Notes under the pieces: generated by a model
Told to the model about the DNA's origin: nothing
Database searches by the model: none
The model's input: the letters and a program-made list of their open reading frames with translations, nothing else
In this document: in pieces, positions 5,308 to 26,492 of the stretch
Numbering within the stretch: position 1 is the first letter of the stretch
Layout of the letters: each line of letters opens with the position of its first letter
IMG/VR virus record: IMGVR_UViG_3300008259_000411
Span: 1 to 37,030 of that record
Length of the DNA: 37,030 nt
Reading direction: 5' to 3' (one strand)
DNA from: a virus
Position numbers and translations under genes: made by a program

Positions 5308-6086
5308 CAGACGACGTAATCGAGCCTAGCAGCTCTGAGGAAGTTTCTCAAGACTCTGGCCTACTCGATAATGTAAATGTAGAACCAGCAGCAAACACAG
5401 ATCCAAACGCAACAGCAATATCACATCTTGATACTCCAGAAGATGATGATGGCCCATTAGAAAGACCAGATTGGTGGCCAGAAAACTTTTGGAAAAAAGA
5501 TGATGCAGAACCAGATCTAGAAGCGATTGCAAAATCATGGACAGATCTTCGTAAGCAAATCTCACAAGGTAAACACAAAGCACCAGCAGATGGTAATTAT
5601 GACTATTCAGCTTTTGGCAATACACCAGAAGATGATCCTGTTCGTGGCCATGTAGCAACATGGGCTAAAGAACATGGTGTTAGCCAAGCTGCATTAGATG
5701 ACTTAGTAAAACCTATTGTAGAGATGAATGCTAACTTAGCACAAACATCTACATTCAATGTAGAACAAGAGCGTAAATCTTTAGGCCCTAATGCTGATGC
5801 TAGAATTAAAAGCATTGTGCAATGGGGAACAGGCTTAGTTCAAAAAGGTGTATGGAGTAAAGACGACTTTGAAGAATTCAAGTTTATGGGTGGAACAGCT
5901 AAAGGGATATCTGCTTTAGAGAAACTTCGTGGTGCTTATGAAGGCCGAGTGCCAACAGATAGCTCTCCAGAAGGAAACGCTCCAACAAAAACTGAACTTT
6001 ATCAATTGGTCGCTGATCCAAGATACCAGACAGATAAAGCGTTTAGAGAGAAAGTAGAGAAACAATTCCAAGAAGCTTTTGGTTAA
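5304..6086 (+). CDS. Scaffold / capsid assembly protein
   Basis: 260 residues. Scaffolds guide capsid shell formation and leave before maturation. Signs here are a long acidic, disordered N-terminus (about residues 1-60, with EDDDGPLERPDWWPENFWKKDD), a middle helical region, and a short basic C-terminal helix (DKAFREKVEKQFQEAFG), which is typical for coat binding. Its place between portal and capsid genes and its end at a strong terminator also fit. T7 gp9 is somewhat longer (about 307 residues). Assignment rests on position plus composition. Confidence 0.8.
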   Translation: MTDDVIEPSSSEEVSQDSGLLDNVNVEPAANTDPNATAISHLDTPEDDDGPLERPDWWPENFWKKDDAEPDLEAIAKSWTDLRKQISQGKHKAPADGNYDYSAFGNTPEDDPVRGHVATWAKEHGVSQAALDDLVKPIVEMNANLAQTSTFNVEQERKSLGPNADARIKSIVQWGTGLVQKGVWSKDDFEEFKFMGGTAKGISALEKLRGAYEGRVPTDSSPEGNAPTKTELYQLVADPRYQTDKAFREKVEKQFQEAFG

Positions 6087-6105
6087 AACGCAAATAGCTT
6101 CAAAT

Positions 6106-6132
6106 AGCCCCCTTGATTGGGGGCTTTTTTTT
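6106..6132 (+). terminator. Rho-independent terminator after scaffold gene
   Basis: Perfect 7-bp stem AGCCCCC (6106-6112) / GGGGGCT (6119-6125), loop TTGATT, followed by a run of eight T. It separates the portal-scaffold transcript from the capsid transcript. Confidence 0.92.
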
Positions 6133-10749: not shown

Positions 10750-12948
10750 ATGGCAGAGAGTCCACGTTATCAAAGGGCAAATGTAATATATGCTGATATG
10801 CCTAATATTCAGCCAACAGGGCTACAAGAAGAACTAGCATCTAGTAGACGTATTAGTTCTGCTCTTGACCAAATGATTGGCATTACTACCGACATTGGTA
10901 AAAGATATGCTATGGAAGCTGCTGGTAAATATAGCATTGAAAATCCAATAACAAAAGAACAATTGCTAGAAGCTCAAAAGACAAATGCCAATCCTATTGC
11001 TAAAGATCTTAAAGGCGGAACAATATTTAATGATACTTTAAAGAAAGTATATGCTCAACAAGCATCATCAGAGTTTACTCAAATAGCTTATACGCATTTT
11101 GAAGATGTATTAAAGCAAGTAGAGAATGGAACGCTATCAGATCCAGAGTCTATTAGACAATCACTTGATGCTATTATCAAACCACAATCACAAATATTAA
11201 GTAACATTGATGTTGAAACTGGTGTTGGTTATGATGCTAAAGCTACTGCTTATGCTAACACATACTTTAAACAAGCTAACAAAGAATTAGAAAGACAAGC
11301 TAGAGAACGCATTGATTTATTATCTAACGATACTATTAATGCCAAAGTTAAACAATTTGAATTAGCTTCACTTAATGAATCAGATCCTGTTATCTTAAAG
11401 AATTTATTAGATACACATTTAGAGGATGCAGATGGCACATTCAAACAAAGTAATCATCGTGTTGCTCTTTATGGCCAATTACAGCAAAGATTAAATTATG
11501 TATTAAATAATCGTTTTGCTGAGTATATGGCTAGTATAGCTGGATCAGAAGCTAATGCTATGAAAATGCTTCAAAAGAATAATGCTAAAGCATATACATC
11601 ATTTTGGAAATCAAAAACAGCAGAAGAACAAGATGACCTAAGACAATTTGTGTTAAAAGAAATTAGATTTAGAAATGCTGGTGCAGAAGAATCTGAACGT
11701 CAATTTAAATCTAAACTTAATACTATAGAAGGAATGCTTAAGGATGGCGTTGAGCCAGACAATGAAAGTCTACAATGGATTATGACTAATGTAGGCTCAT
11801 TAAGCCCAGATAGCTTAGTAAGAAAAGATGTTGATATTTTAACTACAAAAGTAAAGATCTATAAAGACTTAAACAGCATGTCTTTGTTAGATAGAGAAGC
11901 TTATGAACAAAAGATTACATCTAATAGAACAGCAGATAATTATGCTTTAGTTGAATTTGTAAAAGACTCTAATAGTAAATATAGAGATAGTTTATCTAAA
12001 GATTTTATTGGCACAATGAAGAAACAAGATAAATACAAAGGAAGTGCATTAGACTTTTCATTGCCAGACTCTAGATTTCAACCTCAAGTAGATGAGAGAA
12101 TTAAAACAGCTGATCTATTTGGTAGAGTTAATAACGTTAAGCCAAGTTATTTAGATGAAGGCGAAATAGAATCATTTAGAGCTGAATATCAAAAAGCAAG
12201 CACACAAGATAAACAATTAATTATGGGTCGTATAGTTAAAACATTTGGCTCAAAGGCTGGTGTAGTATTTGACCAACTATCTCCTAAAGATCCAGTTATG
12301 GGGCATCTTGGTGGATTATTTGTCAATCAATCAAATAAAGAAACTCTTGATGCTGTTATTAAAGGGCAAGACATTATTAACTCTGGAATCAAGTATGATG
12401 TTAATAAATTAACAGAATCATCTGCTATTAGAAACGTTATAGGTGATGCATTTTATGATGTGCCTAAAATACAAACAGCAGTGATTGAAACAGCTAAAGC
12501 ATTATATGCAGAAGAAGCTGTTAGAAAGAACTATGCTAAATTCAATGGATCAGCATTTGAAGAAGCTTTGCAAAAAGCTGCTGGTCAAAAGTCTGGTCCA
12601 GATGGAAAATTGTATGGTGGCATTATTAAACATAATGGCGTAAAAGTATCTATTCCGTCTAGCATTCCAACAAAAGAATTTGATAATGTAATGGATAAGG
12701 CTACATTGGCAGACTTTAGATATGCCTCTGATAACTTTGCTATGCGTAAAAATACCAATGGATTATTTGATGACAATAATCTTGAGTATACATCAGACAA
12801 GCTTAAAGAAGCTGTATTGATACCTATTGATAGTAACAGAGCTAAATTGCGTATAGGCAATTCATTACTAACACTTAAGGGTGGATACGACTTAGTGATT
12901 AATCTTGATGTTTTATATAGAAAACTTAAGGACGAGAAAAGACTTTAA
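10750..12948 (+). CDS. Internal virion protein, T7 gp15-like
   Basis: 732 residues, near the 747 of T7 gp15. Almost entirely helical and highly charged, with no recognisable enzyme motif. In T7, gp15 forms the periplasmic tunnel during DNA ejection. The assignment rests on length, helical composition and position between gp14-like and the largest internal proteins. SD GGAAAA is at 10741-10746. The stop overlaps the next ATG (TAATG at 12946-12950). Confidence 0.7.
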   Translation: MAESPRYQRANVIYADMPNIQPTGLQEELASSRRISSALDQMIGITTDIGKRYAMEAAGKYSIENPITKEQLLEAQKTNANPIAKDLKGGTIFNDTLKKVYAQQASSEFTQIAYTHFEDVLKQVENGTLSDPESIRQSLDAIIKPQSQILSNIDVETGVGYDAKATAYANTYFKQANKELERQARERIDLLSNDTINAKVKQFELASLNESDPVILKNLLDTHLEDADGTFKQSNHRVALYGQLQQRLNYVLNNRFAEYMASIAGSEANAMKMLQKNNAKAYTSFWKSKTAEEQDDLRQFVLKEIRFRNAGAEESERQFKSKLNTIEGMLKDGVEPDNESLQWIMTNVGSLSPDSLVRKDVDILTTKVKIYKDLNSMSLLDREAYEQKITSNRTADNYALVEFVKDSNSKYRDSLSKDFIGTMKKQDKYKGSALDFSLPDSRFQPQVDERIKTADLFGRVNNVKPSYLDEGEIESFRAEYQKASTQDKQLIMGRIVKTFGSKAGVVFDQLSPKDPVMGHLGGLFVNQSNKETLDAVIKGQDIINSGIKYDVNKLTESSAIRNVIGDAFYDVPKIQTAVIETAKALYAEEAVRKNYAKFNGSAFEEALQKAAGQKSGPDGKLYGGIIKHNGVKVSIPSSIPTKEFDNVMDKATLADFRYASDNFAMRKNTNGLFDDNNLEYTSDKLKEAVLIPIDSNRAKLRIGNSLLTLKGGYDLVINLDVLYRKLKDEKRL

Positions 12949-15311
12949 TGGGGATTTACTATACAGAAGTTGATACGTCTACCTATGCCAAAGGAAGCTT
13001 TGGTGGGGAAGATACTGGCTTTATAGAAAACATTAAAGCGTCTTATCGCGCAGAAGATGCGTTTGGTGATGACAACTCTAAAGCTGTAGCTTTAGACAAA
13101 GTATGGTATCCAACTAAAAAGAAATTCTTAGAGCGCGTTAAAATGCCAGACGTTGAAAAGACTAAGTTGTTTGGCGCATTAGATAATTTTACAGTATTCA
13201 ATAAGCCTTATGTAGAAACTGTTAATAACTCTATAAAGTATATTAAAGAGAATCCAGATTTATTTCCAGAAGAAGAATTCCAAAACATAACGCTTGAATC
13301 TTTAGAAGAACAAGCTAAAGAGTATACACGTCAAAAGTTAGAAGATAGAGATAGTATTGCATCACGTCAAACGTTTAGTGGCGGTGTTGGTGAGTTTATA
13401 GGAACGGCAGCTGGAGCTACTTCATTTACAGACGCATTAAGCTTGGCAGTGCCTACAAAGAAAATACCATATCTAAATACTTTAATTAATAAGATGTTTC
13501 AAAACGTCATTATTAATACTGGAACAGAAGCTGTTAAGTATCCAGAAATTAAATCATGGACTGAAGAAGTTACAGGCGATCAATATACATTTGATGAGTT
13601 TTTACAGCATGAACGTGATGTTGCTTTAGGCACTGTAGCTTTTACTGGTGCATTTGAAGGTCTTGCTAAAACACCAAAAGTGTATAGATTTACTAAAGAC
13701 AAAACATTAAAAGGCATTGAATTATTACAAGATGCTTATGCTAAAAAATTTGGCGAGAAAGCAGAAAAGAATGTAGATCTTGAAGCTATTAAAGCTAGAG
13801 ATGAAATTGATACATACATTAATAGCACTAACCCAATTAACAATGATGCTGGTAACTTAGAGCATCAAAATAGATTAGATCAAACTGTAGATGCTATGTC
13901 TACTAAAGACTTAACTAAGCTACCTAAAGATCCACCATCTGATCCTAAAGTGCCTAAAGACATTTATCACTATGAGCGAGATAAAGATCATATTAAATTT
14001 TATGATCCAAATGAAATCAAGGTAGATGCTGAAACATTTCAGTTTAAAGCTGGTGGTGATATTTATGGCGTTACTGAAAGATTAAAAGATGTTAAGCAAT
14101 GGGACCCTATTAGTGCTAATACAGTCATTGTGTATGAAAAGGCTGATGGCGATAAGTTTATTGTAGATGGTCACCAAAGATTAGCTTTAGCTAAAAAACT
14201 ACTTGCAGAGAATCCAGATCAAAAGATAGATATTATAGGCTTTCCATTAAGAGAGATAGACAATGTATCTATGGAAGAAGCTAAGATCATTGCTGCATTT
14301 AAGAATATTAGAGAAGGCACAGGCACAGCTATAGACGCAGCTAAGATACTTAAAGTATCTCCAGATCTATTAGGCACATTACCGCCAAGATCAGCATTAG
14401 TTCAACAAGCCCAAGGCCTTATACAGTTAAGTGATGATGCATTTAGATTAATCAATAATGACGTTATTCCAGCTAACTATGGTGCTATTGTTGGCAGAAA
14501 CATTACAGACCCAGCAGACCAGATTGCAGTTATAGAAATGCTTAAGAGATTAGACCCATCTAATAATAATCAAGCAGAAGCTATTGTTAGACAAATGAAG
14601 GAAACAGGCTTTTCTAAAGCTACACAAGAAAGTCTATTTGGCGAGGAAGTTATATCTGAAAGCCTATTGCTAGAACGTGCAAAGATATTAGATACATCAA
14701 TGTCAGTCATTAAGAATGATAAGCAATTATTTAAAAGCTTAATTGAAAATGCTGACAAAATAGAAGAATCTGGTAACGTATTAAACAAAGTTAATAATCA
14801 ATCAAACGAGGCTATATATGCAAAAGCGATCCAAATCATCAAGGCAAACGCGAATACCAAAGGACCAATCTCAGAGTCCCTCACAAATCTCGCAAAAGAA
14901 TTTAAAGAAGGCGGAAGCAAAGGTTTACAAGGATATGCCAGAGAGTTTGCCAACAGAGTCAGAGAATCGATTGCAAAGGGCGAGTATGATAGGATCACAA
15001 CTAGCGGAGATGGCATCGATATCGCAGTTGCGAAGGAAGCAGATAAGGTCAGCGAACCCGCAGCAAGAGAGTTAAGTTTATTTGACGAAGGCTTAGGATC
15101 TAAAGGCGAGAAAGAACAAGCTAAATCTTTAGATGTGATTGCTAAAGAAGAAATGCAAATGGCTCCAGAGATGGCTGATGTTCCAGTCTATGTAGAAAAG
15201 ATAGATCCCAATACAGGCGGTGTTATTCAAACAACACAAACTGTTAAACAGATTATGGATGAATTGGCTCAAGACGAAAGAGCGCTAAATCGATTGAAAG
15301 GTTGTATTTAA
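12948..15311 (+). CDS. Internal virion / polyvalent protein with ParB-like domain
   Basis: 787 residues. The N-terminal half is helical and includes a hydrophobic stretch (GEFIGTAAGATSFTDALSLA, about 148-167). Residues about 345-480 look like a ParB/DdrB-type nucleotide-binding domain, with VDGHQRLALAKKLL as the clearest motif, preceded by strands ISANTVIVYEKADGDKF. Such domains occur in phage polyvalent proteins that enter the cell with the DNA. No lytic transglycosylase motif, as in T7 gp16, is visible. Codon use changes sharply at about 14818-15072, matching a second open frame listed separately. It ends in TAATG with the next gene. Confidence 0.75.
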   Translation: MGIYYTEVDTSTYAKGSFGGEDTGFIENIKASYRAEDAFGDDNSKAVALDKVWYPTKKKFLERVKMPDVEKTKLFGALDNFTVFNKPYVETVNNSIKYIKENPDLFPEEEFQNITLESLEEQAKEYTRQKLEDRDSIASRQTFSGGVGEFIGTAAGATSFTDALSLAVPTKKIPYLNTLINKMFQNVIINTGTEAVKYPEIKSWTEEVTGDQYTFDEFLQHERDVALGTVAFTGAFEGLAKTPKVYRFTKDKTLKGIELLQDAYAKKFGEKAEKNVDLEAIKARDEIDTYINSTNPINNDAGNLEHQNRLDQTVDAMSTKDLTKLPKDPPSDPKVPKDIYHYERDKDHIKFYDPNEIKVDAETFQFKAGGDIYGVTERLKDVKQWDPISANTVIVYEKADGDKFIVDGHQRLALAKKLLAENPDQKIDIIGFPLREIDNVSMEEAKIIAAFKNIREGTGTAIDAAKILKVSPDLLGTLPPRSALVQQAQGLIQLSDDAFRLINNDVIPANYGAIVGRNITDPADQIAVIEMLKRLDPSNNNQAEAIVRQMKETGFSKATQESLFGEEVISESLLLERAKILDTSMSVIKNDKQLFKSLIENADKIEESGNVLNKVNNQSNEAIYAKAIQIIKANANTKGPISESLTNLAKEFKEGGSKGLQGYAREFANRVRESIAKGEYDRITTSGDGIDIAVAKEADKVSEPAARELSLFDEGLGSKGEKEQAKSLDVIAKEEMQMAPEMADVPVYVEKIDPNTGGVIQTTQTVKQIMDELAQDERALNRLKGCI
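14818..15075 (+). CDS. Candidate overprinted basic protein inside internal virion gene
   Basis: An 85-residue frame in +1 register with the host gene. It begins at an ATG with GAGG six bases upstream (14808-14811). The product is rich in Ser, Gln, Lys and Arg (MQKRSKSSRQTRIPKDQS at the start), with no hydrophobic segment. Exactly over this interval the host frame switches from T/A-ending codons to C/G-ending ones (ATC, GCG, CTC, GTC), and it returns to normal after the stop at 15073-15075. That coincidence suggests selection on the second frame. An imported DNA block is the main alternative. Not proven to be expressed. Confidence 0.35.
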   Translation: MQKRSKSSRQTRIPKDQSQSPSQISQKNLKKAEAKVYKDMPESLPTESENRLQRASMIGSQLAEMASISQLRRKQIRSANPQQES

Positions 15312-17809
15312 TGGCATTTAAAGATTGTATTGTTAATGGAGCTAATGACGGCGATCTAACGCCAGAACAAGCTAAAGCTGCTCAAGAGATGCATGAGCAA
15401 AGGCTTAGCTTACATAAAGGCCAAATGAGCGATGATGCGGCAGAAGTCTTAGCAACTAAAGAAACGCTACAAGCATTAGAAAATCAACTAAGCCATAAAA
15501 GACGTGTATTACTTTTATCTAAAGAAAAGCAAGCTGACATAGCTCGTAAGCTATTTGGAGAAGATGGTTATCGTGGTGGTAATAAAGCTGGTCAAGGAGC
15601 GCAAGCATTAATCAGCGGTGATAGATATGCTACATACAGTAATGTAGAAGCTAGACAAAAATCTATATTTGGTCAGTATCTATCTTACATGGATCAAGCA
15701 TTAGGCACATTTAGAAGGCGTGGTGTTACAGGCAATATGGCTAACATAGATACGCTATATGATGTCGTAAAAGAATTATGGGGAGCAGATACAAAAAGTT
15801 CCGTTGCTAAAGAAATAGCAGAGGCATGGACTAAGACAGCAGAGCTTGCTAGACAAAGATTTAATAAAGCTGGTGGAGCTATTGTTAAGTTAGATACATG
15901 GAGATTGCCACAAAAGCATAATGGCTTGGCTATTCTTAAAGCTGGCCGTGATACATGGACTAAATTTGTTACGCCATTACTTGATCTCAATCTTATGAAG
16001 AATGAGAAAACAGGACTAGCATTTACTAAAGAAGAATTATCACTTGCTCTTAATGAAGTATATGACACTATAGGCACTGATGGATATAGTAAGGTTAAAC
16101 CATCTGGACAACTATACACAGGCGTAAGGTCTGTATCTAATCGTTATTTAGATCATAGATTCTTAGTATTTAAAAATGCTGATGCATGGATTGAATATCA
16201 AAAAGCATTTGGAGATCCAGATGTATTTAATACTATGATTAGCTATTTACATAAGATGTCACACGATACAGCATCTATGGAAATACTAGGGCCTAATCCT
16301 AATTCAACTATGAACTTTATCAGACAGACTGTTATGAAAGATGCTGCTGAAAAGGGACTTGCAACTAAAAATGAAACACTTGTAATTAAGGCTGAAAAAG
16401 AACTTAACTTTATGGATGAGATGTGGCAAGTCTTTAATGGCTCTGCATATGCATCTGCTAATGATGTTGTGCCTAGAACATTCCAAGGTGTGCGTAATCT
16501 TATTAACTCTGCATTCTTAGGTGGCACAGCAATTACATCACTTAGTGATTTATCTTACCAAAGAATAACTGCTAAAGCTAACGGCATACCAACTAATCGT
16601 GTAATGCGCCGTATATTGAAAAACCTTAATCCATTAGATGTAGAGGAGCGTGGTCGTTTAGCATCTCGTATGGGATTAATTGCTGAATCATGGATTGGCT
16701 TAGCTCAAGCTCAAGCGCGATTTGCTGGAGAGATTACAGGGCCAGAAATTACACAACGTATATCTGACGTAGTGATGAGAGCCTCTGGATTATCAGCATG
16801 GACACAAGCTGGAAGATTTGCTTTTGGTATGGAGTTTATGGGCTACTTATCAGATAACGTAGGGAAAGCATTTGCTGAATTAGATAAGCCATTACAAAGA
16901 GGATTAAGACGTTATGGCTTTGATGAAGCTAAATGGGATCTATTACGTAAATCAGATCTATACGAATTTGAAGGATCTAAATTTTTACGTCCAGAGGAAA
17001 TACGTTTAGCTACTCACTTAAGTGAAGATGAAGCACAAGAATTATCTACAAGATTCTTAGAGATGATTCAAACAGAAACAGAATTTGCTGTGCCAACAGT
17101 GACTGTAAGAGGTAAGGCTACATTGATAGGTGCATCTCAAGCTGGCACTATCTTAGGTGAAATCTCTCGTAGCTTTGCTATGTATAAAAACTTTGCTGTG
17201 ACGCTATATCATACTCATATTATGAGAGCGCTTTCAGAAGCTACATTAAAAGGCAAGGCTGGATCTGTAGGCGACTTAGTTATATCAAGTATGCTTATGG
17301 GTGGATTAGTATTGCAATTACAAGAAATGCGTAAGGGCAGAGATCCAAGAGCTATGGATACAAAAGAATTCTGGGGAGCTGCTTTATTACAAGGTGGTGG
17401 CTTAGGTATATATGGCGACTTATTGTTTAGTAACGTTAATCGTTATGGCGCTGGCCTAGAAGATACATTAGCTGGTCCAGTTATTAACTTATTAAACAAT
17501 CTTAAGAACTTAACTATAGGTAATATATCTCAAGCATTAAAAGGCGAAGATACTAATGTAGCCAGCGAAACACTTAAAATGATACAAACCTATACTCCCG
17601 GCTCAACTTTGTGGTATTTAAACCTTATGATGCAAAGAGAGATATGGGAAAGAATGCAGCTATGGATTGATCCTAATTACATGGATAGATTGAATAGAAT
17701 GCAGAATAAATACTTTAATGAAACAGGGCAAGAGTTCTGGTGGAAACCTGGCTATGATGCTCCAGATCGTGCGCCAGAGATATCTAGCAAAACTTTATTG
17801 ACACAATGA
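15311..17809 (+). CDS. Large internal virion protein (gp16-like position)
   Basis: 832 residues when started at the ATG at 15311, which overlaps the previous stop as TAATG; an in-frame TTG nine bases earlier is less likely. Mostly helical. Conserved-looking parts are KLDTWRLPQKHNGLAILK, NRYLDHRFLVFKNADAWIEY, AFGDPDVFNTMISYLHKMS and GPNPNSTMNF. Hydrophobic stretches near the C-terminus (GSVGDLVISSMLMGGLVLQL and LLQGGGLGIYGDLLFS) could touch membrane. I place it as the largest ejected internal protein, with the two genes 12948-17809 together covering the T7 gp16 role. Enzyme motifs are not evident. Confidence 0.7.
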   Translation: MAFKDCIVNGANDGDLTPEQAKAAQEMHEQRLSLHKGQMSDDAAEVLATKETLQALENQLSHKRRVLLLSKEKQADIARKLFGEDGYRGGNKAGQGAQALISGDRYATYSNVEARQKSIFGQYLSYMDQALGTFRRRGVTGNMANIDTLYDVVKELWGADTKSSVAKEIAEAWTKTAELARQRFNKAGGAIVKLDTWRLPQKHNGLAILKAGRDTWTKFVTPLLDLNLMKNEKTGLAFTKEELSLALNEVYDTIGTDGYSKVKPSGQLYTGVRSVSNRYLDHRFLVFKNADAWIEYQKAFGDPDVFNTMISYLHKMSHDTASMEILGPNPNSTMNFIRQTVMKDAAEKGLATKNETLVIKAEKELNFMDEMWQVFNGSAYASANDVVPRTFQGVRNLINSAFLGGTAITSLSDLSYQRITAKANGIPTNRVMRRILKNLNPLDVEERGRLASRMGLIAESWIGLAQAQARFAGEITGPEITQRISDVVMRASGLSAWTQAGRFAFGMEFMGYLSDNVGKAFAELDKPLQRGLRRYGFDEAKWDLLRKSDLYEFEGSKFLRPEEIRLATHLSEDEAQELSTRFLEMIQTETEFAVPTVTVRGKATLIGASQAGTILGEISRSFAMYKNFAVTLYHTHIMRALSEATLKGKAGSVGDLVISSMLMGGLVLQLQEMRKGRDPRAMDTKEFWGAALLQGGGLGIYGDLLFSNVNRYGAGLEDTLAGPVINLLNNLKNLTIGNISQALKGEDTNVASETLKMIQTYTPGSTLWYLNLMMQREIWERMQLWIDPNYMDRLNRMQNKYFNETGQEFWWKPGYDAPDRAPEISSKTLLTQ

Positions 17810-17865: not shown

Positions 17866-19989
17866 ATGGCTGATTATGCAATAACCAATGTGGCAAGACG
17901 TGTGGTCTATACTGGCTCTGCTGGTGTAGGTCCTTACGCATTTTCGTTCCCTGTATTAGTAAATACAGATATTGCAGTATACAAGAATACCACACTATTA
18001 ACATTAACAACAGATTACACTGTAAGCATTAGTTCAACTACAGGAACTGGATCAGTTACATTAGTATCAGCCGCTACTGGATCTGATCGTATCACTATTG
18101 TAGGTGCAAGAGCTATTCAACGCTCAACAGACTTCGTAACTGGTGGCGACTTCTTTGCCAACACACTTAACACTGAATTAGACTCAGAAGTTATCTTTGT
18201 TCAACAAGTAGCTGAAACAGCAGAGCGTTCATTACGCGCTCCTGTAACAGATCCTACAACAATTAACATGACATTGCCATTGAATACTGCTCGTGCTAAT
18301 AAAACACTTGCATTCGATTCAGATGGTAACCCTATTGTAGGTGAGCAAATTGGTGACTATCGTGGTAACTGGGCAGCTGGCACAGCATACAATAAACGAG
18401 ATCTAGTTAAGGATACTACTACCAATAATATCTATATCTGTTTAACAGCACATACATCTACTGGTAGCCAACCACTTACAACAAATACAGACTCAGCTAA
18501 ATGGGGATTAATTGTAGATGCTGCTGCATCTTCAAATGCTGCATCTAACTCATCTAATGCTGCAAATAACTCTAGCAACTTTGCTAACAATGCTAGTAAT
18601 TCAGCCAATGCTTCATCTAATCATGCTAACAATGCTAGCAACTTTGCTAATAACGCATCTAACTCAGCTAATACAGCTTCTAATGCTCAAGCTAACGTAG
18701 CTGCTAATGCAAGTGCTGCATCTAACAGTGCTAATAATGCTTCTAACTTTGCTAACAACGCTAGCAATAGTGCAAATGCTTCTAGCAATCATGCTAATAA
18801 CTCATCTAATTTTGCAAATAACGCAAGTAATAGTTCTAATAGCGCTAGTGGATTTGCGAATAACGCAAGTAACTTCGCTAACAATGCATCGAATAGTGCT
18901 AATGCTGCGGCAGCTTCATCGACTACAGCTAATACAGCAGCTAATAATGCAACTAATGCATCAAGCAATGCAAGTAACCATGCAAGCAATGCATCAAACT
19001 TTGCAAACAATGCAAGCAATTCAGCTAACAGTTCTTCTGGATTCTCTAACAATTCAAGTAACTTTGCCAATAATGCAAGCAATAGTGCTAACGCAGCAGC
19101 GTCTGCACAAGTAGCGGCAGAGTCAGCTCGTGATGCTACATTAACTGCATACGATAACTTTGATGATAGATATCTAGGAGCTAAGACATCTGATCCAACA
19201 TTAGATAATGATGGCAATGCTCTCGTTGCTGGTGCATTATATTTCAATAGTGTTGATGGCGCTATGAAAGTATACACAGGATCAGCATGGGTAGCTGCTT
19301 ATGTATCTGGCACTGGATTCTTATCTGCTGCTAATAACTTATCTGATGTAGCTAATACTAGCACAGCAAGAACAAATCTTGGTCTTGCTATCGGCACCAA
19401 TGTTCAAGCATATGATGCTGAATTAACAGCCATTGCTGGATTAACTTCTGCTGCTGATAAAGGCATTCAATTTACTGGTTCTGGCACAGCTGGCACATAT
19501 GATTTAACATCTGCTGGTAAAGCATTGTTAGATGACGCTGATGCTTCAGCACAAAGAACTACTTTGGGATTAGGCACATTAGCTGTCATTAGTCCTACAG
19601 GAACTGCATCATCATCAACATTCCTTCGTGGTGACAATGCATGGACAACAGTATCAGTTACACCTACTGCTGTATCAGATCAAACTAACTCATCTACAGG
19701 ATACTTTGACTTACCAGCTGGAACTACAGCAGAAAGACCAGGATCACCAACATCTGGTAACATGCGCTATAACACCAGCACAAATAGTTTTGAAGGATAC
19801 AATGGATCTGCATGGGGATCTATCGGTGGTGGCGCAGCTGCTGGTGGTGCAATTTATGAAAACACATTAACAATTAGTTCTAACTACACATTAACAACAA
19901 GCACCAATGGCATGTCTGTTGGCCCAATCACAGTCGCTTCTGGCGTAACAGTTACAGTTCCTAGCGGACAACGCTGGGTAGTATTATAG
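17866..19989 (+). CDS. Tail fibre protein with T7 gp17-like N-terminus and Asn/Ser/Ala heptad shaft
   Basis: 707 residues. Residues 1 to about 125 (ITNVARRVVYTGSAG, PYAFSFPVLVNTDIAVYK, FANTLNTELDSEVIFVQQVAE) match the T7 tail-fibre N-terminal domain that anchors the fibre to the tail. About residues 163-218 look like a small carbohydrate-binding module (YRGNWAAGTAYNKRDLV, NIYICLTAHTSTG, KWGLI). Residues about 222-410 are an unusual shaft of seven-residue repeats made almost only of Asn, Ser and Ala. The C-terminus has fibre repeats of the LGLGT type (AYDAELTAIAGLTSA, ARTNLGLA). SD AAGGAAAA is upstream. It binds the host surface, probably together with the genes that follow. Confidence 0.88.
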   Translation: MADYAITNVARRVVYTGSAGVGPYAFSFPVLVNTDIAVYKNTTLLTLTTDYTVSISSTTGTGSVTLVSAATGSDRITIVGARAIQRSTDFVTGGDFFANTLNTELDSEVIFVQQVAETAERSLRAPVTDPTTINMTLPLNTARANKTLAFDSDGNPIVGEQIGDYRGNWAAGTAYNKRDLVKDTTTNNIYICLTAHTSTGSQPLTTNTDSAKWGLIVDAAASSNAASNSSNAANNSSNFANNASNSANASSNHANNASNFANNASNSANTASNAQANVAANASAASNSANNASNFANNASNSANASSNHANNSSNFANNASNSSNSASGFANNASNFANNASNSANAAAASSTTANTAANNATNASSNASNHASNASNFANNASNSANSSSGFSNNSSNFANNASNSANAAASAQVAAESARDATLTAYDNFDDRYLGAKTSDPTLDNDGNALVAGALYFNSVDGAMKVYTGSAWVAAYVSGTGFLSAANNLSDVANTSTARTNLGLAIGTNVQAYDAELTAIAGLTSAADKGIQFTGSGTAGTYDLTSAGKALLDDADASAQRTTLGLGTLAVISPTGTASSSTFLRGDNAWTTVSVTPTAVSDQTNSSTGYFDLPAGTTAERPGSPTSGNMRYNTSTNSFEGYNGSAWGSIGGGAAAGGAIYENTLTISSNYTLTTSTNGMSVGPITVASGVTVTVPSGQRWVVL
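18529..19104 (+). repeat. Degenerate 21-bp repeat coding for Asn/Ser/Ala heptads
   Basis: About 25 seven-codon units of the type NASNFAN, NASNSAN, ASSNHAN, with occasional interruptions (NVAANAS, AAAASST). The protein repeat is much more regular than the DNA, since synonymous codons vary (AGT, AGC, TCT, TCA for Ser). This points to old repeats held by selection on the protein. The shadow frames over this block are by-products. Confidence 0.85.
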
Positions 19990-21235: not shown

Positions 21236-21501
21236 TGAATAAACATGAAGCTATATATAAACTTTATCCTAATGTTGCATACATTAATGATGAAGTTCCA
21301 TATGACAAAGATGGCAATGTAGTTGCTATCAATGTATCTTTAGTAGATGCAGAGGTAGCTAAATATGCATACGTTACACAAAGACAACAAGCATATCCAT
21401 CTATCGTAGACCAACTAGATACTCTCTATCATGGTGGCTATGACTCATGGAAAGCATCTATAGATGTAGTTAAGAATAAGTATCCTAAAGGAGCAGCATA
21501 A
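21235..21501 (+). CDS. Small tail-fibre-associated protein, possible assembly chaperone
   Basis: 88 residues. The C-terminal half AYPSIVDQLDTLYHGGYDSW followed by KASIDVVKNKYPK is a recurring motif in small proteins next to phage fibre genes. The N-terminal half predicts short strands (VPYDKDGNVVAINVSLVD). I read it as an accessory or chaperone for the fibre proteins on either side. One-base overlaps at both ends tie it to the same operon. Confidence 0.65.
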   Translation: MNKHEAIYKLYPNVAYINDEVPYDKDGNVVAINVSLVDAEVAKYAYVTQRQQAYPSIVDQLDTLYHGGYDSWKASIDVVKNKYPKGAA

Positions 21502-22493
21502 TGTCAATGATTTTAGATGGCTCAAACGGAGTCACGTTCCCATCATGGACTACTAGCACTAGACCATCTAGCCCCACGACAGCTATGACTGGATACAATA
21601 CAACTCTTAATGTAATGGAAGTGTATACAGGAACTACATGGATAGCAGTTGGTGAGCAATCAACTTATTATTCAATAGATTTTTTAGTGGTCGGAGGCGG
21701 TGGTGGCGGTGGCTGTGGAACTAATGCTGGAAACGTAGAAGGTGGCGGTGGTGGCGGTGCTGGTGGGTTTAGAACATCTACTCAAACAGCAAATGTTGGC
21801 ACAGTAATTACAGTGACAGTGGGAGATGGAGGCGCTGGAACAACCACTGCTGGTGCTAGTGGAACATCAGGTGTTGCTTCTTCAATTTCAGGATCTGGAT
21901 TAACAACAATATCTTCTGCTGGTGGCGGAGCTGGAGGCGGTAATGGTATTGTTGGAAGTAGTGGCGGATCAGGCGGAGGCGGTGGTGCTGGAACTGGCAA
22001 TGCTGCTGGCGGAGCTGGTAACACTCCAAGCACTTCACCAAGTCAAGGAAGTAATGGTGGTGCTGGTTCTGGTGGTGGTAATGCTGGAGGTGGTGGTGGA
22101 GCTTCCGCAGTTGGTGGAACGGGTGCAGGCACTGGTGCTGGCGGAGCTGGGTCATCTTCTTCTATAACAGGCTCTGCAATAACTTATGCGGGAGGTGGTG
22201 GAGCTGGTAGTGCAACCAATCTTAATGCTGGTGGAAATGGAGGCGGTGGTGCTGGAGCAAGGGGACTTACATCTCCTATAGCAGCAGTAGCTGGAACTGC
22301 TAACTTAGGTGGTGGTGGAGGCGGGGGTTCAATTGCTGGAACTTCTGTAAGTGCTTCAGGTGGTAAAGGCGTTGTGATATTAAGCGTTCCTACTGTAAAC
22401 TATTCTGGAACAACAACAGGCTCTCCAACAGTTACAACATCATCAGGAAAAACAATTTTAACATTTAATGGATCAGGGAGTTATACAGTATAA
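21501..22493 (+). CDS. Glycine-rich tail adhesin
   Basis: 330 residues. After an N-terminal fibre-type segment (about residues 1-55, SNGVTFPSWTTSTRPSSPT), the protein has a strand DFLVVGGGGGGG followed by about 220 residues of Gly-rich, Ala/Ser-containing sequence. It ends GKGVVILSVPTVNYSG. This matches the glycine-rich domain family found in phage adhesins, where polyglycine helices pack into a sandwich with variable loops that bind receptors. Gly codons are mixed GGA, GGC and GGT, so the run is not a simple DNA repeat. Variation would be expected in the loops. Confidence 0.75.
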   Translation: MSMILDGSNGVTFPSWTTSTRPSSPTTAMTGYNTTLNVMEVYTGTTWIAVGEQSTYYSIDFLVVGGGGGGGCGTNAGNVEGGGGGGAGGFRTSTQTANVGTVITVTVGDGGAGTTTAGASGTSGVASSISGSGLTTISSAGGGAGGGNGIVGSSGGSGGGGGAGTGNAAGGAGNTPSTSPSQGSNGGAGSGGGNAGGGGGASAVGGTGAGTGAGGAGSSSSITGSAITYAGGGGAGSATNLNAGGNGGGGAGARGLTSPIAAVAGTANLGGGGGGGSIAGTSVSASGGKGVVILSVPTVNYSGTTTGSPTVTTSSGKTILTFNGSGSYTV

Positions 22494-23395: not shown

Positions 23396-23761
23396 GTGGA
23401 CCCAATTACTATACTTGCTGCACTAGGACCAGTGGCTGTTGATTTAGGCAAATCACTTATCAATAAATTTATAGCACCAGATCAATTCAAACCAGCAACC
23501 ATAGAACAATATGCTCAAATGAAACAGATTGATCTTGAGTTCTTTAAGGTGATGAATGAAGCTGGTGGTGGCAATCCATCTTATCCATGGGTAGAAGCTG
23601 TGATTAGACTCATGCGCCCAACCATAGGATTGTTAGTATTAACAACATGGGTTATCATGCATTTAAAATCTATTGCAACACCAGAGGTAGATAACTTTGC
23701 TAGTGCTGTAGGATTCTATTTATTTGGCGAGCGTTCTTTATTTCATATTAAGAAGAAATGA
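23396..23761 (+). CDS. Holin, 3-TM GTA-type
   Basis: 121 residues, starting with GTG at 23396 behind a very strong SD (AAGGAGGAG, 23381-23389). The N-terminus is hydrophobic (ITILAALGPVAVDLGKSLI), the middle polar, and the C-terminal half has RLMRPTIGLLVLTTWVIM and a second hydrophobic stretch NFASAVGFYLFGERSL. This is the pattern of the three-TM holins found in gene-transfer agents and many phages. It forms inner-membrane holes that let the endolysin out. It overlaps the endolysin start by four bases, which fits. Confidence 0.75.
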   Translation: MDPITILAALGPVAVDLGKSLINKFIAPDQFKPATIEQYAQMKQIDLEFFKVMNEAGGGNPSYPWVEAVIRLMRPTIGLLVLTTWVIMHLKSIATPEVDNFASAVGFYLFGERSLFHIKKK

Positions 23762-24195
23762 ACTTATCACCACACTTTACATTAAAGGAACTGACAGCAT
23801 CAGAGATAGCAGATAGACATGGCATAGATAATATACCATCAGATCCATCTATCATAGCTAACTTAAAAACATTAGCGAAAGGATTAGAGCATGTTAGAAC
23901 TTTACTTAATAGACCTATTCTTGTTAATAGTGCTTATCGTTGCATTCATGTTAATCAGTTACTTGGGAGCAAACCGACAAGCCAGCACGTCAAGGGATTG
24001 GCGGCAGATATTATCTCTCCCCTTTTTGGATCACCTTCAGAAATTATTAAAAAGATTGTATCAAGCACTATTGAATACGATCAAGTTATCTTGGAGTTTG
24101 ATCGCTGGATACACATTAGCTTTGCTGAAGAAAATAAAGAGCCTCGTAAGCAAGCATTGATTATAAATACCAAAGGCACTAGACAATATAAATGA
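23758..24195 (+). CDS. Endolysin, M15-type zinc peptidase
   Basis: 145 residues. It should cut the peptide cross-links of peptidoglycan. The N-terminus HFTLKELTASEIADRHGIDN is typical for this phage group. Zinc ligands are visible in SQHVKGLAADI (His77, Asp84) and in WIHISF (His119), with YDQVILEF before the last. Length is right for single-domain M15 endolysins. There is no signal peptide, so it relies on the holin. A second open frame with a membrane helix runs inside it and is listed separately. Confidence 0.88.
   Translation: MNLSPHFTLKELTASEIADRHGIDNIPSDPSIIANLKTLAKGLEHVRTLLNRPILVNSAYRCIHVNQLLGSKPTSQHVKGLAADIISPLFGSPSEIIKKIVSSTIEYDQVILEFDRWIHISFAEENKEPRKQALIINTKGTRQYK
23891..24160 (+). 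CDS. Candidate membrane protein embedded in endolysin gene (+1 frame)
   Basis: An 89-residue frame starting at an ATG with AAAGGA (23878-23883) seven bases upstream. Residues about 5-27 are a clean hydrophobic helix (YLIDLFLLIVLIVAFMLISY). After it comes a basic, amphipathic region (RQASTSRDWRQ, then LQKLLKRLYQALL). No spanin is found elsewhere, and embedded lysis genes are known in other phages, so a spanin- or holin-like role is possible. A caution: NNT-rich codons in the main frame tend to give hydrophobic residues in this register by chance. Confidence 0.3.
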   Translation: MLELYLIDLFLLIVLIVAFMLISYLGANRQASTSRDWRQILSLPFLDHLQKLLKRLYQALLNTIKLSWSLIAGYTLALLKKIKSLVSKH

Positions 24196-26144: not shown

Positions 26145-26492
26145 TTAATAAAATATATGATTATTAATAACAACCTTAATAGGCTTGCCCCATTGGTTAG
26201 GTAATGCAACACTATGAAAGTGTGTGCTACCACGGCTAGTATCTTTAATCTGTTTGTTTAGAATTTTTTCAGCTAAATCTAGATATGGGCGCAACTTCTG
26301 CATGTCATAATCTTTTGGCTTAGTAGTCCACTCAAATTGATATGGCCTATACACTTCAAGACATACCTTATTGCGATCAAAGTTAGCTCTGCGATACAGA
26401 ACATAACCCACTGCCACTTGCCCACTAACTGGCTCTGAACCAGCTTCATGGGCAATCGTTAATGCCATACACATCATTGCTGCACTTATCAT
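26145..26492 (-). CDS. SleB-like cell wall hydrolase
   Basis: 115 residues. The order ALTIAHEAGSEPVSGQVAVG, YVLYRRANF, PYQFEWT and GSTHFHSVALPNQWGKP follows the cell wall hydrolase 2 (SleB) family, which cuts the glycan strand. Glu16 in AHEA is the likely catalytic acid, and HFH (91-93) is the C-terminal signature. A short hydrophobic N-terminus (MISAAMMCMALTIA) could serve for export, but it overlaps the catalytic part. It is a second wall-active enzyme, away from the lysis cassette and on the other strand. It overlaps the next gene by four bases (ATGA). Confidence 0.78.
   Translation of the reverse strand: MISAAMMCMALTIAHEAGSEPVSGQVAVGYVLYRRANFDRNKVCLEVYRPYQFEWTTKPKDYDMQKLRPYLDLAEKILNKQIKDTSRGSTHFHSVALPNQWGKPIKVVINNHIFY

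Follow-up and report, generated by a model that had tools for sequence, protein, structure and literature searches.

The locus considered here raises the question of whether a reading frame of 85 codons, lying entirely within a much longer gene of a podovirus, encodes a protein of its own and, if so, what this protein might do. The whole stretch of DNA that was analysed (hereafter the window; IMG/VR virus record IMGVR_UViG_3300008259_000411, positions 1 to 37,030, 37,030 nucleotides) carries the two frames on the same strand (Table 1). Nested genes are usually dropped by gene callers, and the phage families that they form therefore stay unseen. Overprinting itself is already known, and its occurrence among viral genes has been reviewed (PMC8227390); what is new here is a nested protein of 85 amino acids, which is in none of the family libraries searched. 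Judging from the comparison of related sequences, we consider it very likely that the inner frame is a real, selected and previously unannotated protein-coding gene, overprinted on an older host gene.

Table 1. Coordinates of the host gene, the inner gene and their parts in the window.
Feature	Position	Strand	Description
Host (outer) gene	12948..15311	+	787 aa; ParB/Noc-like (DdrB-type) domain
Inner overprinted gene	14818..15075	+	85 codons + TAA; frame +1 of host gene 12948-15311
Shine-Dalgarno core GAGG	14808..14811	+	six bases 5' of inner ATG
Inner residues 1-40	14818..14937	+	Lys/Arg/Ser/Gln-rich basic tail; predicted mostly disordered; low-confidence helix 21-38
Inner residues 45-79	14950..15054	+	predicted long helix; most conserved part
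Host residues 677-702	14976..15053	+	predicted disordered linker over inner helix; pLDDT 33-42

The host gene and the frame nested in it

The host gene is situated between tail-tube/core genes and the gene of a phrog_684 virion protein, with a tail fibre gene also nearby, and belongs to the head/ejection gene cluster of a podovirus. The label 'internal virion protein', given to it by the first-pass annotation, is fair by gene order, though more exactly the product is a carrier of a DdrB-type ParB/Noc-like domain. The protein matches phrog_10691 (E 1e-58); no Pfam or NCBIfam model matched it at the thresholds used. The model of its domain resembles Noc and ParB (Foldseek, probability 1.00), a DGHQR motif is present, and a ParB-type fold and an active-site motif are found together beside virion genes, which is the combination by which the DdrB type is recognised. 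The kind of domain, the DGHQR motif and the virion-gene neighbours are shared with the DdrB-type ParB polyvalent proteins of PMC5512222, the sections of which used here mention no nested gene, and many members of this class are devoid of the inner gene.

The inner frame, present with its start and ribosome site where it had been predicted, begins with the ATG at 14818-14820 and ends with the TAA at 15073-15075. Its length alone is only mildly unusual and proves little, since a +1 frame of at least 85 codons was found in 0.7% of 5000 synonymous shuffles; the proof comes from conservation. The product is, as expected from the first reading of the sequence, very basic and rich in Ser and Gln (pI 10.5, net charge +8.5, Ser+Gln+Thr+Asn 38%). 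An antisense frame in the same region, 14798-15016(-), was discarded, as it is interrupted by stops in the relatives.

The host codons over the inner interval were claimed to shift to C and G endings, and sliding windows of 84 codons along the host gene bear this out: the maximum of G/C-ending codons falls in the one starting at 14802 (37 vs a median of 18 over all such windows) and the minimum of T-ending codons in the one starting at 14820 (14 vs 31), values that none of 5000 synonymous shuffles matched. Relatives of low and of high GC content have a codon shift at this interval too, which rules out an imported block as its source; in GC-rich relatives it goes toward C/A and away from G. We ascribe the unusual host codons to selection on the inner frame, because the third base of the host codon is the second base of the inner one; T at this site would place hydrophobic residues in the basic tail of the inner protein.

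Conservation of the inner frame and selection on it

One viral contig (L001) encodes a host protein 95% identical and an inner protein 93% identical to those of the window, and other viral contigs hold more distant relatives of the host protein, six at 67-70% identity and over seventy at 41-57%; altogether the viral-contig relatives number roughly 400. The loci L007-L012 (host protein ~68% identical) have the same ATG, ribosome site, frame and stop region, and their inner proteins show strong conservation of KNLKKAEAKVYKD and QLRRKQ. The inner frame is present in all of L007-L085, being cut by the contig end in L046, and most relatives have GAGG, AGGAG or AAAGGAG as the ribosome site before its ATG. 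In L032 a short form without the first part of the basic tail begins at a later ATG (4911) behind the strong site AAGGAGG, and in L165 and L167 the start (near 2980) has moved upstream, where AAGGAG forms a new site; the peptide of these two is also found in L168 and L169. Selection seems to act less on the position of the start than on keeping the C-terminal helix translatable.

Conservation was scored in 32 sequences of <80% nucleotide identity, picked by similarity to the host gene of the window; these relatives are mostly metagenomic, interrelated and not phylogenetically independent. Over 14838-15017 they contain 1 stop in the inner frame against ~57 expected, and the counts of +1 stops in the flanking bins of the host gene are at expectation. 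Across the three bins of the overlap, 1 stop in the +1 frame is to be compared with 89 in the +2 frame, the host frame being open in all 32 sequences. The similarity of the inner peptides exceeds that of a synonymous-shuffle null by z of 15 to 35 within the overlap and mostly of 1 to 7 upstream; the flanking bins lie slightly above zero, probably because this null takes no account of how context affects codon choice. In the last third of the overlap conservation is higher in the inner frame than in the host frame (scores of 1.33 and 0.65, respectively, over 15018-15077). At host column 697 the inner residue is K in 31 of the 32 sequences, and at column 671 it is S in all of them, beside columns at which the host residue is free to vary, and the inner motif L-[QR]-[RK]-K (host residues 694-697) is kept at a place where the host residues mostly vary.

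The synonymous sites, whose examination in relatives had been proposed at the first pass, proved to be constrained in the overlap only. For 26 disjoint pairs of close relatives, divergence inside the overlap is 0.039, 0.016 and 0.045 at host positions 1, 2 and 3, as against 0.035, 0.014 and 0.157 outside it, so that third positions alone diverge 3.5-fold less there (chi-square p 6e-20), positions 1 and 2 being unchanged. We regard this drop as a signature of dual coding, since the third host position coincides with the second inner one. The ATG and the ribosome site are also stronger than under the synonymous null (combined z -7.7), in a test made conservative by L057 and L074, which were scored at an ATG later than the true start. 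The claim of overprinting with selection on the inner frame holds on all these points: both frames are kept open, the inner peptide is under protein-level selection beyond that of the host frame, the host third positions are constrained, and the gene has, as read from the sequence, its own conserved start and ribosome site.

Programmed frameshifting in the host gene might in principle give access to the +1 frame and yield a ParB-inner fusion, and in the window this frame is indeed open from 14785, i.e. from 33 bases 5' of the inner ATG. However, the ATG and its Shine-Dalgarno site are conserved, +1 stops occur upstream at varying places, and in L165 and L167 the start moved along with its ribosome site, all of which makes such a fusion highly improbable. 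That the frame is an untranslated shadow of an RNA element, an imported block or a codon constraint of the host protein is scarcely credible, for, although similarity in the +2 frame is also raised over the interval, as any local nucleotide constraint would have it, only one of the two frames lacks stops, which an RNA element (no Rfam match was obtained) would not bring about, the start signals are kept, inner conservation exceeds that of the host, and relatives of different GC share the codon shift.

Distribution and age of the inner gene

An HMM of the inner gene, built from viral contigs only, was run on held-out relatives from bacterial genomes and gave matches at the same spot in L086 (5e-17), L091 (5e-11), L105 (5e-9) and L088 (4e-8). 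In L086, L088, L091, L095 (Mameliella), L096, L105 and L108 (Oceaniglobus) the inner frame beats all 200 synonymous shuffles made for each; in L087, L092, L094, L098, L099, L102 and L109, and likewise in L089, L097 and L106, the inner-profile score is not above the shuffles. Searches with inner-protein profiles yielded 88 loci, each nested in frame +1 of an ORF with a ParB domain, and no stand-alone inner gene was among these 88 matches (one locus is cut by the contig end). The nested family is kept across phages whose host genes share only ~40-50% identity, and strong comparative proof is combined with wide spread in aquatic (marine and freshwater) phages and prophages.

In the one named phage record with an inner-gene candidate, the gene is unannotated. 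The record of Dunaliella viridis virus SI2 (L003), labelled as a green-alga virus, contains a podophage-type cluster homologous to the window (34% to the protein of 15302-17809), and the virus is probably a bacteriophage. A candidate inner gene at 5845-6132, behind ACGAGG, exceeds all 200 shuffles but is weak (13.6 bits); this virus probably carries a diverged inner gene and was, with caution, scored as having it in the tree. Ruegeria phage 45A6 (L004) and L090 were ambiguous and were excluded from the carriers.

Host homologues with stops in the inner frame, which the first-pass annotation had named as evidence against the gene, do exist (e.g. L094, L099, L101 and L110), but only as distant relatives in other branches, ~33-50% identical to the domain of L040, and they therefore date the gene rather than refute it. 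On an unrooted tree with long branches, based on the host domain outside the overlap, the presence of the inner gene is strongly clustered and takes at least 4 changes. As the host protein is more widely distributed (a search for it in plasmids found none), the inner gene is most likely the younger of the two by sequence comparison, with loss in some branches being possible on an unrooted tree. Many relatives with the same virion genes have no inner gene, which indicates that it is inessential to virions of this kind; and, as some relatives carry it and others do not, the origin of a gene through overprinting can be tested directly in this group.

The lambda-type Rz1 gene, nested inside Rz, is a known overprinted phage gene. 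Like Rz1, the inner gene is small and complete, occupies the +1 frame of a longer phage gene and has a start and a ribosome site of its own, and its frame is probably younger than that of the host. Unlike Rz1, it has neither a lipoprotein signal nor a spanin context; the host gene and the protein are different, and no sequence relation between the two systems was found.

Predicted structure and possible role of the inner protein

Searches with 36 members of the inner family gave no significant Pfam or PHROG match, and the weak scattered ones (down to 0.013, e.g. TrcR) were taken as chance. No sequence match in PDB, no tblastn match in phage records and no structure match were found for the inner protein, nor was a published description of this nested gene among the titles and abstracts listed by the literature searches. 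In the wider family the inner helix has the motif S-x-x-Q-L-x-x-A ... A-L-S-M-L-x-R-K. AlphaFold models, resting on shallow alignments of 35-36 sequences, give this helix pLDDT block means of 91-97 over residues 51-80 and leave the N-terminal part at low confidence; the host domain is confidently helical to residue 676 and then disordered over 677-702, the host conservation being near zero at many columns of this linker. In the models order and disorder thus appear complementary, the inner helix lying over the disordered linker of the host protein and the disordered inner tail over host helices, so that two proteins sharing one stretch of DNA show a neat structural partition. We put at about even the chance that the inner protein represents a previously undescribed, nested-only family, its folded part fitted onto the disordered host linker, which would act as a dedicated component of the DNA-ejection machine or else partner the injected ParB protein.

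As to the role, podophage virions eject small proteins, such as gp6.7 and gp7.3 of T7 (PMC11784390). In gp7.3 the N-terminus, unresolved and for the most part positively charged, lies next to DNA and the C-terminus is ordered; gp6.7 has short helices that dock on core proteins (PMC11784390). The predicted inner protein is likewise a small podovirus protein of similar plan with its gene among core and tail genes; unlike it, gp6.7 and gp7.3 are encoded by stand-alone genes, and the general searches showed no sequence similarity between them and the inner protein. The virion gene neighbourhood and a layout in which a helix follows a basic disordered tail, a loose physical resemblance, lead us to suggest, tentatively, that the inner protein may be a small basic accessory of the virion or of ejection, similar to these two. 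Translation of its gene would start internally on the late virion mRNA, at the ATG and Shine-Dalgarno site of the inner frame; the protein would be an accessory of the virion core or of the DNA-ejection apparatus or channel, with the C-terminal helix docked on one of the larger proteins (core, tail or ParB) and the disordered basic tail in contact with DNA. If so, many podoviruses would have in their infection machinery a small protein that has so far been missed.

Small, basic and fast-evolving proteins are common in phages, and the inner protein could be one that acts early or counters defence by blocking a function of the host cell; it would be produced late and then delivered, or else be made within the cell. 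The host gene does fall within the class of injected conflict proteins as outlined in the relevant sections of PMC5512222. However, the inner gene sits in a late virion cluster and, in contrast to most counter-defence genes, is conserved among phages that have diverged widely, and such a function seems unlikely to us. Also doubtful is a role as partner or restrainer of the host protein's ParB domain, and not as a virion component, in which the inner protein would, for example, keep a ParB-type nuclease/NTPase inactive in the producing cell. All matches of the inner profile are within ParB-domain ORFs, and ParB-type domains in injected phage proteins are thought, in the same sections of PMC5512222, to be NTP-regulated DNases; but this co-occurrence is explained by nesting alone, as an overprinted gene cannot easily leave its host gene, and many ParB-domain proteins exist without the inner gene.

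Other features of the window may be mentioned. Another +1 nested ORF, of 135 codons (18707-19114, +), lies inside the tail-fibre gene 17866-19989; it has no counterpart in L001 and is probably due to chance. A +1 ORF of 89 codons (23891-24160, +) lies inside the endolysin-like gene 23758-24195. Endolysin-type matches occur at two places, in the latter gene (+; phrog_894) and at 26145-26492 (-; phrog_938). The segment 21601-22320, inside the gene 21501-22493 (phrog_2295 match), has a GC content of 0.47-0.55, well above the rest of the window, and a strong G skew.
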